From the NCBI GenBank assembly GCA_023819365.1, contig JAMWBP010000007.1:1-11304 (forward strand): a stretch of 11,304 nucleotides of DNA, in the 5' to 3' direction. The notes beneath the pieces were generated by a model. It saw nothing but the letters and a program-made list of their open reading frames with translations. It was not told the origin of the DNA and searched no databases. The stretch is from Candidatus Omnitrophota bacterium. GTDB taxonomy: Bacteria; Ratteibacteria; UBA8468; B48-G9; JAFGKM01. Positions within the stretch are counted from its first letter, which is position 1, and the number at the start of each line of letters is the position of its first letter. Positions 6,305 through 10,390 of the stretch are shown piece after piece. The position numbers were made by a program, and so were the translations under genes.

Positions 6305-6411
6305 ACCTTTATTAATCTGGACGAGGTAATGAAGAAGTTGAGAAAGGTAGTGAACAGTTTCTATATATTTGAAAACTTATGACTTTGTTCATTGGCTGTA
6401 TCTTTCCTCTA

Positions 6412-6462
6412 CCCCCTCACCCACACCCTCTCCCCGCTGTGGGAAGAGTGTGGGTGAGGGGG
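6412..6462. repeat. GC-rich palindromic repeat, copy 1
   Basis: A 14-bp perfect inverted repeat (CCCCCTCACCCACA at 6412-6425, its complement at 6449-6462) encloses an imperfect inner stem, giving a 51-bp hairpin. The left arm 6413-6435 matches 10329-10351 at 21 of 23 bases, so this is a dispersed repeat family. Similar pyrimidine/purine palindromes are scattered between genes in many bacteria. It lies between divergent genes, so it is not acting as a terminator for either in the usual place. It also explains why a spurious reading frame, rich in Ser-Pro-Thr, extends upstream of the HAMP-like gene. Confidence 0.75.
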
Positions 6463-6480
6463 AATTGAATGTGCGGGGTA

Positions 6481-6509
6481 TTGACAAAAATATCTATGTG
6501 AGGTATCAT
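6481..6509 (+). promoter_or_regulatory. Candidate sigma70-type promoter for the signalling block
   Basis: TTGACA at 6481-6486 is a perfect -35 box; TATCAT at 6504-6509 (five of six) follows after exactly 17 nt. A TATAAT at 6510-6515 is also present but is 23 nt from the -35, too far to be its partner. The start point would be near 6516, which is also the GTG chosen for the next gene, so the message could be leaderless or the true start may be different. Confidence 0.45.
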
Positions 6510-6515
6510 TATAAT

Positions 6516-7076
6516 GTGAAGATAAAGGGGCGACTAAGGTTATGGGTTGACAGAGAGATACAGTTAAAGATTGTATTGTATGCATTGATTTCCCTCGCTA
6601 TTGCCTGTGCGGTTGTAAGCATCGTAACATTTTATAGCATCTGGTCAGATGTAGGATATAAACTGCTACGCCCAGAAAATTTTGAAAAGATATACATATC
6701 TTCTTTAAGAAGATTTACTCTCACAAACTTCCTTCTTGTAATTCTTCTTGGAATTCTTACTGCATTAGGGATGATTGTTATTACACACAGAATCGCAGGA
6801 CCTGCATATCGTATAAAGACCATCATTAAAGACCTTTATGAAGGTAAGACACCCACATTTGCCCTCAGAAAAGGAGATGCGTTCAAACCAATGCTGGAAG
6901 AGATAGAAAAACTTGCAGCAAGATATGATGAGATAGGTAAAAGCGCTCTTGCAGTTATTGAAAGATGGAAGAATACAGAGGTAAGGGATATGAGTTTGAA
7001 CCTTGCACTAAAAGAACTTGAGAATAAACTTGTATATCTCTCTATCTCAGAAGGAAGAGAAAGGAGGGAACAATGA
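6516..7076 (+). CDS. Two-helix membrane protein with HAMP-like region
   Basis: Encodes about 186 residues from GTG 6516-6518. A short basic cytoplasmic start (KIKGRLRLWVDREIQ) leads into a membrane span at about 19-41, an external loop of about 28 residues, and a second span at 70-91. Then comes a HAMP-like stretch beginning HRIAGPAYRIK and containing LYEGKTPTFALRKGD, followed by a long helical tail (about 125-186). This is the layout of a signalling or docking membrane protein with no output domain. GTG starts at 6471 (with GAGGGGG upstream, inside the repeat) and 6498 and an ATG at 6369 are alternatives. The 6369 start would translate the palindromic repeat and is unlikely. The stop TGA overlaps the ATG of the prepilin-like gene (ATGA), with AGGAGGG nearby, so the two are coupled. 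A partner role for the CHASE2 sensor downstream is inferred. Confidence 0.7.
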   Translation: MKIKGRLRLWVDREIQLKIVLYALISLAIACAVVSIVTFYSIWSDVGYKLLRPENFEKIYISSLRRFTLTNFLLVILLGILTALGMIVITHRIAGPAYRIKTIIKDLYEGKTPTFALRKGDAFKPMLEEIEKLAARYDEIGKSALAVIERWKNTEVRDMSLNLALKELENKLVYLSISEGRERREQ

Positions 7077-7711
7077 AGAAAAGTAAAGTGGGATTCAGTT
7101 TGATAGAGATCCTTATCTTCTGCTTCATTGCTGTTACCCTGCTTATGCTTTTTGTAGGACTTGCTTTTAATTCCAGGGAGTTTTCACGGACTATGGGCTG
7201 CATCAACAATATGAAGAATCTTGCACAGGCGATTGAAAACTTCCAGGCAGACAACAGAGAGACACCAAGAAACCTTGCCGACCTTTATCCACAGTATATA
7301 ACAAGCAACAGAACATTTAAGTGCCCTACCGACAGAACTTCTGACACCAACAGTTATGAGCGGTTCTATATAGGGAGGTTTTTTGCTGAAGAAGATGGGC
7401 AAAAGGTATTCCTTGTATGTCCACGGCATAACAGGGGAAGCAAAACCGTAGCTGCATACCTATCATATGCGGTTGATATAGGAAGAAACAGTAATGTCTT
7501 GTGGAGCGGGCTGCCTGCTACATTCGGTGAGGTATACACTGGTGGAACACTCCAATTCGTAGATGGGACTACTGTGGAGATTACTTCAGGTAGGGTAGGA
7601 CTGCTTGCCTCCTTCACAGACAATGAGGGGAAACTCTACCACATCATATACACACCGGAAGGAGAGGGGGGGGAGTTTAATAGTAAACCATCAGGGGAAC
7701 TCAAGGTTTGA
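7073..7711 (+). CDS. Prepilin-like protein entering a FecR-like region; frame broken at a G8 tract
   Basis: Encodes 212 residues as read. The N-terminus KKSKVG|FSLIE is a type IV prepilin/pseudopilin cleavage and methylation site: Gly7 before the cut, Phe8 as mature +1 and Glu12 at +5, then a hydrophobic helix to about residue 31. The globular part has single cysteines at 43, 84 and 116 in CPTD- and CPRH-type motifs. From about 150 (TFGEVYTGGTLQFVDG onward) it resembles the first half of a FecR-like domain (VDGTTVEITSGRVGLL). At 7666-7673 eight G occur, and after them this frame yields only EFNSKPSGELKV and stops. The FecR-like sequence continues in another frame. Start: ATG 7073-7075 with AGGAGGG 5 nt upstream, overlapping the previous stop by 4 nt. 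I read it as the front part of one 295-residue protein. Expected location is the inner membrane or periplasm. Confidence 0.8.
   Translation: MKKSKVGFSLIEILIFCFIAVTLLMLFVGLAFNSREFSRTMGCINNMKNLAQAIENFQADNRETPRNLADLYPQYITSNRTFKCPTDRTSDTNSYERFYIGRFFAEEDGQKVFLVCPRHNRGSKTVAAYLSYAVDIGRNSNVLWSGLPATFGEVYTGGTLQFVDGTTVEITSGRVGLLASFTDNEGKLYHIIYTPEGEGGEFNSKPSGELKV
7666..7673 (+). repeat. G8 homopolymer tract inside the prepilin-FecR gene
   Basis: Eight consecutive G within the codons for PEGEGG. With eight G the frame terminates at 7711; with seven G the frame continues to 7961 through FecR-like sequence (addition of two G would do the same). Runs of this length are known slip sites in phase-variable genes, for example in Campylobacter, and are also common sequencing-error sites. 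Confidence 0.9.
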
Positions 7712-7961
7712 GGTTATCACACCTGCTGTGATTGCAGGGGTTGAAGGCACAAAGTTTATAGTGAGAAATATCTTGAAGGATAACTATATTACTTCATCTA
7801 TTATTGTACTGGAGGGGCTGGTTAAGGTCCAGGATAGAAGTCAGGATACATCTGCATCTGTTGTCAAGCCAAACCAGATAAAAGCAGTAAGTGTTATAAC
7901 CGCGCCAACAGATAGTAGTGTTAGAAAGAAGGGTGTGCCAAGAAAGCCGAAAAAGCATTAG
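7674..7961 (+). pseudogene. C-terminal FecR-like part, out of frame with its N-terminus
   Basis: The frame open to 7961 (stop TAG 7959-7961) contains SRFEVITPAVIAGVEGTKF, close to the FecR hallmark 'F.V.TP.a..gVRGT.F', then IIVLEGLVKVQDRS and VVKPNQIKAV, the usual end of that domain. The C-terminus is basic (RKKGVPRKPKKH). Upstream of the G8 run this frame is not FecR-like; it could begin at TTG 7605 or ATG 7623 but has no convincing ribosome site. So the meaningful sequence starts after the G tract and belongs with the prepilin-like gene. FecR-type periplasmic domains are often encoded beside CHASE2 sensors, which fits the next gene 22 nt downstream. It is unclear whether this is a true pseudogene, a phase-off state or a sequence error. 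Confidence 0.7.
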
Positions 7962-7983: not shown

Positions 7984-10239
7984 ATGAAAGCAGCCATTAA
8001 GGTTTTAGTAGCAGTTATTGTTTCTCTTGTAGTCCTTTTTATATTCTCTAAAAAAACCCTTGAAAAGGCAGAACTTATTTTTTATGACTGGCGGCTGAAG
8101 AACTCTTACAGCGATATAACATCACTCCCTTTTGTTGTTATAGGAATCACACAAAACTTTGAACAGGTGGTTGGAGAGCCATTTTCAAGAAAGCACTTTA
8201 CAGAGATATTAAAGGTTCTTGAAAGAGAAGGTGCCTCTGTTATTGGTTTTGATATATTCTTCCCACAGATAACAGACAAAACAACTGACAGGGAATTTAT
8301 AGAAGAAATCAAAAAAAGTCAGAAGGTTGTCCTCCCTGTTTTCTCTCCTGTAAGGATTAGTAATAGGGAGGTCATATTTTATCTTGCTGATGAAATAAGA
8401 AGCAGTGCACATGAATTTAACAATGCAGCATTATCTTTAGGGCATATAAATACACTAATTGATTCAGACCAGGTAATAAGAAGGGTGCCTGCCTTTATAA
8501 AAACAAAAGATACGGTCTATCCTCAAATATCCCTTGAGATGGTGCGTATATATAAAAAAGAAAGAGAAATCCGCAGTATATACCCTCTGCTTAATGATAT
8601 TATGTCTTCCATTTTCAGAAGTGATGGCAGTATATATGTAAGGATTATGCCTCCCGAAGTAATAGAAAAATACTTTATACCATTTGAAGATGTTCTTACA
8701 GAAAAATATCCTCCAGGCCACTTCAACAAAAAACTTGTACTTATAGGACAAACCGTCGTCGGGGCAAAGAATGCAGACCTTATACCAACACCACTTGGAA
8801 CACAGTTTGGTGTCATCTTTCAGGCAGCGGTCTTACATAATGCACTATCAGGAAATTATATCCATAGATTTAAGCCATCCTTTATTTCTATGGGAATTAC
8901 AGCAACAGGTATTATTACAGGGTTTGTCTTTTTATCATCAGGGGTTATAGGCAGCAGTTTCCTTCTTCTGGGTTTAAGTGCTGTACTTATATTTTTTTCC
9001 CTTTTTCTGATGCGAAACGGAATTTTCCTTGATACTATCCCATTCCTTATACTGTTTTTTTCTATGTATCTCTGTTCCCTTATATATTCCCTGGTAAACG
9101 CACTTAAAAAATTGTTTCAGAAAGAAGAGACCCTGAAGGTCATACACCAGGTTGAAGAAGAAATAACCGATACACTTAACCCTTCTGAGATTACAGGACT
9201 ATCAGGGGAGATACTCTTTTCAGGAATTGAAGGGGAAGAGTTGATAAAACAGACCCCTATTTTTACAATGAGAACACTTCTTGCTTCTTTAGGTATTGAG
9301 GCAGGCGCCTTTATCCATCTTCTCTCATCAAAAAAACATCAGATTATCACCCTGTATGGAGATATATTACCTGAAGATATAGAAAAACTTGTGGATGAAT
9401 ATCTCGGAGAGAAAAAAAATATTTTGATAAAAAGCCGGGTGGCGTCAGAGAAAATTCGTAACCTCCTGTTTTTACCTGTTATCTCTCTTCCGACATTTAA
9501 GATACTCGGCATTTTTATTAATAAGCAGCCATCATTTTTTTCAAGGACACAATCATTCTCTCAGGAAGATATCCCTCTCATACAGACACTTTCTCTTCAG
9601 GCACTACTTGCTATCCAGAACTCACGGCTTAACCTTGCACTCAAAGAGACACAGAAGGAAACTATATTCCGTCTTTCTGTTGCCATTGAGTACAGAGATA
9701 GAGAAACAGGTGTTCATATACACAGGGTAAGTTCATATGCCGCGCTTATAGCAAGAAGCATAGGGCTTTCTTCAAGTGAGGTGAACCTGATAAGAAATGC
9801 TATGCCACTTCACGACATAGGAAAAATAGCCATACCCGACCATATACTTCTGAAACCAGGAAAACTCACACCCCAGGAGAGGAGCATCATAGAGCAACAT
9901 CCTGTCATCGGAGCAAGGATGCTTGAGGGTTCAAACTCACTGGTTCTTAAAGTAGCTGAAAGCATTGCTCTTTACCACCATGAGCGATATAATGGTTCAG
10001 GATATCCTTTCCATCTCAAAGGTAATAGTATTCCAATATATGGACGGATTGCAGATGTCTTTGATGCTATGACATCTCAACGGATATACAAGGCATCCTC
10101 GGATATGGAAGATGCTCTCTCTCTGTTAAAAAGAGAGGCAGGAAGCAGTTTTGACCCTGTAATGGCAAATAGTTTTATAAAGTGCAGGGATGAAATTATT
10201 AGGATACAGGAGATATACAGGGAAGATGTAGTAGGTTAA
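7984..10239 (+). CDS. CHASE2-GAF-HD-GYP sensor, predicted c-di-GMP phosphodiesterase
   Basis: Encodes 751 residues. A membrane anchor at 5-22 is followed by a periplasmic CHASE2 domain (about 28-290): FYDWRLKN, VVIGITQ, FSRKHFTEIL, ASVIGFDIFFPQ, LGHINTLIDSDQVIRRVP, LVLIGQTVVGAKNADLIPTPLG. Three spans follow at about 303-320, 322-342 and 350-372, then a coiled linker, a GAF-like domain (about 400-550, ending FSQEDIPLIQTLSLQALLAIQNSRL-like), and an HD-GYP domain (560-745). The HD-GYP residues look complete: His580 region (HIHRV), His610-Asp611 (HDIGK), KPGKL, His639 (EQHP), His665-His666 with HHERYNGSGYP, and Asp691 (IADVFDA). HD-GYP enzymes hydrolyse cyclic di-GMP, so the protein likely converts an envelope signal into lower c-di-GMP. 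The ATG at 7984 lacks a clear ribosome site and follows the FecR-like frame by 22 nt. Last gene of the three-gene block. Confidence 0.92.
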   Translation: MKAAIKVLVAVIVSLVVLFIFSKKTLEKAELIFYDWRLKNSYSDITSLPFVVIGITQNFEQVVGEPFSRKHFTEILKVLEREGASVIGFDIFFPQITDKTTDREFIEEIKKSQKVVLPVFSPVRISNREVIFYLADEIRSSAHEFNNAALSLGHINTLIDSDQVIRRVPAFIKTKDTVYPQISLEMVRIYKKEREIRSIYPLLNDIMSSIFRSDGSIYVRIMPPEVIEKYFIPFEDVLTEKYPPGHFNKKLVLIGQTVVGAKNADLIPTPLGTQFGVIFQAAVLHNALSGNYIHRFKPSFISMGITATGIITGFVFLSSGVIGSSFLLLGLSAVLIFFSLFLMRNGIFLDTIPFLILFFSMYLCSLIYSLVNALKKLFQKEETLKVIHQVEEEITDTLNPSEITGLSGEILFSGIEGEELIKQTPIFTMRTLLASLGIEAGAFIHLLSSKKHQIITLYGDILPEDIEKLVDEYLGEKKNILIKSRVASEKIRNLLFLPVISLPTFKILGIFINKQPSFFSRTQSFSQEDIPLIQTLSLQALLAIQNSRLNLALKETQKETIFRLSVAIEYRDRETGVHIHRVSSYAALIARSIGLSSSEVNLIRNAMPLHDIGKIAIPDHILLKPGKLTPQERSIIEQHPVIGARMLEGSNSLVLKVAESIALYHHERYNGSGYPFHLKGNSIPIYGRIADVFDAMTSQRIYKASSDMEDALSLLKREAGSSFDPVMANSFIKCRDEIIRIQEIYREDVVG

Positions 10240-10328: not shown

Positions 10329-10390
10329 CCCCTCACCCTGACCCTCTCCCCTCTGGGGAGAGGAAAAAGGAGAGGGGGGGGTGAAGGGAA
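10329..10390. repeat. GC-rich palindromic repeat, copy 2
   Basis: The left arm 10329-10351 matches 6413-6435 at 21 of 23 bases in the same orientation. Its core is a perfect 9-bp stem (CCTCTCCCC at 10343-10351, GGGGAGAGG at 10355-10363) with loop TCT; the outer purine arm runs to about 10390 and includes a second G8 run at 10374-10381. The rest of the 10240-10498 spacer holds a small stem (GCCAGA 10455-10460, TCTGGC 10464-10469) but no gene that I can support. I see no strong promoter for the downstream gene. Confidence 0.7.

Follow-up and report, generated by a model that had tools for sequence, protein, structure and literature searches.

The two pieces of the prepilin-FecR gene

The window (the whole analysed stretch of 11,304 nucleotides) corresponds to contig C212 in a MAG of 1.08 Mb, which is 54% complete and consists of 220 contigs. 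It carries a prepilin-FecR gene in two pieces, located between a membrane-protein-like gene and a gene for a CHASE2 - HD-GYP-type protein (Table 1). The frames of the pieces are offset by one base and cross at eight consecutive G, which were read directly from the sequence. The N-frame ORF ends at a stop 38 bases past the G run. The C frame has its upstream stop at 7596, and both frames are open together only over 7599-7711. Begun at TTG, the C-frame ORF of the ORF list (7605-7961) encodes 118 aa; the gene caller's start is the GTG at 7728, and its product has 77 aa (P0039). In the ortholog alignment, the N frame was matched up to the tract and the C frame beyond it. Thus the ORFs, the tract and the ortholog frames agree with the earlier note, which had placed the prepilin and FecR halves in frames one base apart with the break exactly at G8.

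Table 1. Features around the frame break in the window
Feature	Position	Strand	Description
Membrane-protein-like gene, upstream	6369..7076	+	overlaps the N-frame ORF start; neighbour in 19/19 ortholog loci
N-frame ORF	7073..7711	+	212 aa (ORF list); prepilin-type N-terminus (G-F-S-L-I-E, long helix), DUF1559-like part, first FecR half
C frame	7599..7961	+	second FecR half after the tract; open from 7599
Shine-Dalgarno-like AAGGAG	7659..7664	+	immediately 5' of the G run; putative, from sequence only
G8 tract	7666..7673	+	turn in the FecR beta fold, about ortholog residues 198-200
CHASE2 - HD-GYP-type (HD_5) protein, downstream	7984..10239	+	751 aa; in 17/19 ortholog loci

In 61 of the 220 contigs of this genome (412 kb), the probability that a randomly chosen site is 25 bp or less from a G/C run of at least 8 is about 0.0006; for any run of at least 8 it is about 0.012. 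Therefore, chance does not account for the coincidence of frame break and tract. Compared to the nearest ortholog, the two pieces contain neither a second shift nor a stop. In the predicted model of the nearest intact ortholog, the tract position falls between the strands 188-193 and 200-205. The window also contains a second G8, at 10374-10381, which is intergenic between 10239 and 10499.

The N piece matches Pfam PF07596 (DUF1559) at 24.2 bits, over the cut-off, and the C piece matches PF04773 at 26.0 bits (cut-off 24) over profile positions 47-97. Four of five relatives also exceed the PF04773 cut-off (P0001, 31.7; P0002, 28.8; P0008, 33.4; P0034, 33.1 bits), and P0007 stays below it at 22.5 bits. 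The fold is that of a periplasmic FecR/PupR domain. Prepilins have a Gly before the cleavage site, Phe at +1 and Glu at +5, with a long hydrophobic helix after them. The prepilin-FecR family has this arrangement: G7, F8 and E12 are invariant in 34 relatives, and the nearest intact ortholog is modelled with a helix at residues 10-61. The methylation motif model PF07963 did not reach its cut-off (19.3 bits in the best relative, against 21.2), and no match to it was reported for the window N piece or P0007. The match to the geopilin profile is weak (E 0.032).

One reading frame in the relatives and conservation of both halves

All 19 full-family orthologs, which come from related genomes of the Omnitrophota type, have both FecR halves in the same frame. 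A G run of at least five within 144 bases at the tract place was absent from all 18 readable orthologs. Where the window has only G, the relatives have GAA or GAG followed by GGA; the two orthologs of the same genus read GAA GGA GAA GAA GGA AAT and GAA GGG GAA GAG GGA AGT. It follows from the common frame and the missing G run that the gene is a true fusion, as the earlier note had supposed, and that the break is specific to this lineage or to this assembly. Two separate genes, which that note had allowed for as relatives with their own starts, are ruled out for the orthologs examined. Relatives with seven G, the other case it had named, were not seen either; they have no G run there at all.

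The relatives from the protein search belong to Candidatus Omnitrophica / Omnitrophota and Ratteibacteria MAGs, and the host is therefore most likely an uncultured bacterium of this group. Both motifs are within one protein in 35 of 37 of the relatives, gapped rows being used in this count for the 34 proteins of structure alignment A1, from which P0003, P0032 and P0037 were excluded. P0032 (198 aa) keeps the prepilin part, and its sequence departs from the family earlier than the tract, perhaps by a frame break at another site. P0037 is without the prepilin part. The genome G023 has only family residues 142-294, in an open frame of 170 codons. No ortholog was found in G003, G004, G006, G011, G015, G020, G021 and G027, where G003 and G004 are members of the genus. 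A near-identity DNA match in five genomes of the genus was found only to the window itself.

Compared to the sister, dN/dS is 0.12 (bootstrap 0.05-0.23) in the N part and 0.23 in the C part (bootstrap 0.10-0.46, which overlaps the N range). The neighbours have values of 0.16 (CHASE2 protein) and 0.13 (upstream gene), and the C half is nominally above both. When the changes were assigned to branches with five protein outgroups, the window and the sister had 5 and 5 in the N part and 5 and 6 in the C part, with no excess on the window branch. The low dN/dS in both halves and the even branch changes rule out an old pseudogene. The absence of a second shift or stop and of extra changes on the window branch bears out two further points of the earlier note, that the gene has no other damage and is not an old decaying pseudogene. 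Judging from the sequence, neither half appears clearly decayed. The break is young, apparent or tolerated.

Broken genes at G runs and elsewhere in the genome

The assembly of 1.08 Mb contains 20 distinct G/C runs of at least 7, of which 12 have length 7, seven length 8 and one length 9. In 412 kb we observed 3 G8 and 1 C8 runs, and 4.1 and 3.4 were expected. G runs are thus scarcer than the first-order expectation and not enriched. Four G/C runs of at least 8 are inside long open frames. Two of them (on C63 and C187) do not break the frame; the other two are the run in the prepilin-FecR gene and one in a zinc alcohol dehydrogenase on C38. The latter gene is broken at G8 (L130:3667-3674, own contig C38) with the other offset. 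None of its five fetched relatives is broken, and none has more than four G at this place. In G002, a homolog of this piece contains two stops. For the alcohol dehydrogenase, unspecific slippage or error is a better fit than a switch.

For the frameshift scan, 412 kb of the own genome (61 of 220 contigs) was compared with 591 kb of the sister (61 of about 130 contigs, which total about 1.5 Mb). In the own genome, 4 of 12 first candidates were kept, and the rest included overlapping frames of one place and short frames. Broken homologous stretches amounted to 4 of 163 in the own genome, one of them at a gap of N, and to 4 of 162 in the sister, that is, about 2% of the compared genes in both MAGs. 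Only the window's break among the four own ones has a run of at least 6 nearby; in the sister, two of four breaks have A6 or T6 nearby. A second NagB-like gene (L100, near 490) has a one-base break in a conserved stretch, and its sister copy is unbroken. A scaffold gap of ten N lies inside a gene at L106:2724-2736, and 60 other own contigs contain 15 runs of N. In the sister, a C8 (L190:12133-12140, contig C46) lies where an open frame of 252 codons meets one of 250 codons on the same strand, which may be a further frame break or simply two neighbouring genes. MutS was detected in this genome, where it is in two pieces, and in all four other genus genomes searched. Loss of mismatch repair is therefore not supported, and general hypermutability through MutS loss is not indicated.

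These data bear on the possible phase-variable switch of the earlier note, which had named transcript slippage and an assembly error as its other options. With such a switch, slipped-strand changes of the G run would alternate the FecR sensor between on and off states within the population. Such an explanation agrees with a break located exactly at G8 in the gene of an exported, surface-type sensor, with halves that both look conserved, and with the possibility that this state is shared by more than one strain (see below). Slipped-strand frameshifts at homopolymeric tracts are known in bacteria (phase variation; surveyed for example in PMC2831843 and PMC3711429), and in the window, too, the frame of a coding sequence breaks exactly at a mononucleotide run. 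However, the run is not conserved in the readable orthologs, the two of the same genus included, and G runs are not enriched in the genome. MutS is present throughout the genus members searched, and the other gene broken at G8 encodes a metabolic enzyme, an unlikely switch target. Eight G is also short for a contingency tract. A conserved contingency tract should recur or vary among relatives, and it does neither. Thus, a switch of this kind is unlikely. The part of the earlier proposal that stands is a broken fusion gene without long decay; a conserved contingency switch is not supported. Overall, a recent slippage mutation or a sequence error is most likely, over a built-in on/off switch.

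It is possible, though doubtful, that the break is a sequence or assembly error and that the organism has a run of another length and an intact gene. This is the main rival. The incompleteness and fragmentation of the MAG and its runs of N are consistent with it, as are the 2% of broken genes in both MAGs, with the one-base break of the second NagB-like gene among them, and the fact that two of the four long G/C runs in long open frames break the frame. According to an excerpt of PMC3711429, unclustered, BLAST-validated frame transitions are expected to be mostly sequencing errors. On the other hand, the runs on C63 and C187 left their frames unbroken. Only one of the four own breaks adjoins a run of at least 6, so homopolymer errors are not the general pattern here.

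A second contig also speaks against error. The search with the C piece returned a second 77-aa protein, P0040, which differs from P0039 at 2 of 77 positions, has the same GTG start and is encoded on a separate 2758-bp contig. Since the start residue is the same, the N-half frame is apparently not open there, for otherwise the caller would not begin at this place. The window CHASE2 protein forms a one-member cluster, and no near-identical protein of at least 413 aa is among the matches listed. Little of the CHASE2 gene can therefore lie on the 2758-bp contig, which by arithmetic leaves at least 1.26 kb upstream of the GTG. Judging by the protein matches, the tract is probably on this contig as well, and P0040 thus suggests that the split is also present in a second strain. 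Two assemblies could, however, share one platform error. The P0040 contig nevertheless shifts the balance towards a real allele.

Our tentative explanation, to which we give a probability of about 0.45, is that the break is an ordinary recent slippage frameshift in a true fusion gene and not a maintained switch. Substitutions in this lineage would have created the G run, on which replication later slipped and changed the frame by one base, and the frameshift allele may be fixed or segregating in the species. If so, the DNA is correct, replication slippage is the cause, the allele is young and the product would be truncated within the FecR fold. Broken genes are the normal background in both genomes, and the single-frame orthologs, P0040 on a separate contig and the lack of clear decay also fit this explanation. 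However, the second broken G8, in the alcohol dehydrogenase, could mean that G runs are unreliable in this assembly, and the C half has a nominally larger dN/dS than the neighbouring genes. In addition, a frame change in two strains without decay would also be expected from a tolerated tract, whether recoded or switching.

Tolerance by recoding would mean that the ribosome or RNA polymerase slips on the run and gives some full-length protein. The AAGGAG immediately before the run is suggestive, and matters only for this reading; the lack of decay is also consistent with it. There is a precedent in another system, where, according to an excerpt of PMC5009743, low-level frameshifting on a run of Gs offsets an indel. 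However, the orthologs have neither the tract nor a shift site, which rules out a conserved programmed site. The folding of the stretches around and downstream of the run was no better than that of shuffled sequences (z 0.58, -0.45 and 1.89), so that no stimulatory RNA structure beyond chance was found. The Shine-Dalgarno-like string may mean nothing, because purine-rich codons are usual at this place in the relatives. We consider recoding improbable. Its strain-shared form, in which G8 would be a real allele tolerated by use, with AAGGAG and the G run shifting ribosomes in a fraction of passes, is more improbable still. If it were true, one gene would give a pilin stub with half a FecR domain as well as the full sensor; the full sensor would serve the neighbouring CHASE2-HD-GYP protein, and the run length would tune the ratio.

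A prepilin-type FecR protein beside a CHASE2-HD-GYP protein

When intact, the gene encodes a prepilin-FecR fusion and is next to that of a CHASE2-HD-GYP protein, a variant of a known pairing of FecR and CHASE2. The two loci without a complete pair are L005, which has no CHASE2-HD-GYP gene in the stretch examined, and L019, which stops at the contig end. In the sister, the CHASE2-HD-GYP homolog is in two pieces 1.4 kb apart (L063:8403-11987; residues 23-717 and 715-750), which looks as though other sequence were interposed.

An excerpt of PMC5192318 describes the BiofilmReg operon of Burkholderia, in which a LysM-FecR protein is next to a CHASE2 histidine kinase. As in that operon, the FecR-domain protein is here encoded directly before a CHASE2 membrane protein. 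In contrast to what the excerpt describes, the FecR domain here shares its protein with a prepilin-like N-terminus, and the CHASE2 partner has a C-terminal HD-GYP-type domain in place of the kinase. Compared to the FecR/PupR-type periplasmic signalling domain (PF04773; PDB 6ovk, 4m0n), the prepilin-FecR protein has a prepilin-type tether and no anti-sigma domain, and in the window it is split. Among the paper titles listed for this combination, we found no description of a prepilin-FecR fusion. The pilin-tethered FecR domain most likely senses the state of the envelope and passes the signal to the CHASE2 domain. The HD-GYP-type domain of the partner would break down cyclic-di-GMP.

A real G8 would add another case of slippage at G runs in uncultured bacteria. 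It would also caution that breaks at homopolymers in MAG genes should be checked in reads before they are labelled as switches. The more lasting result is the intact prepilin-FecR family, which is kept beside CHASE2-HD-GYP across related Omnitrophota genomes. This combination may point to an envelope sensor feeding a cyclic-di-GMP-type output.
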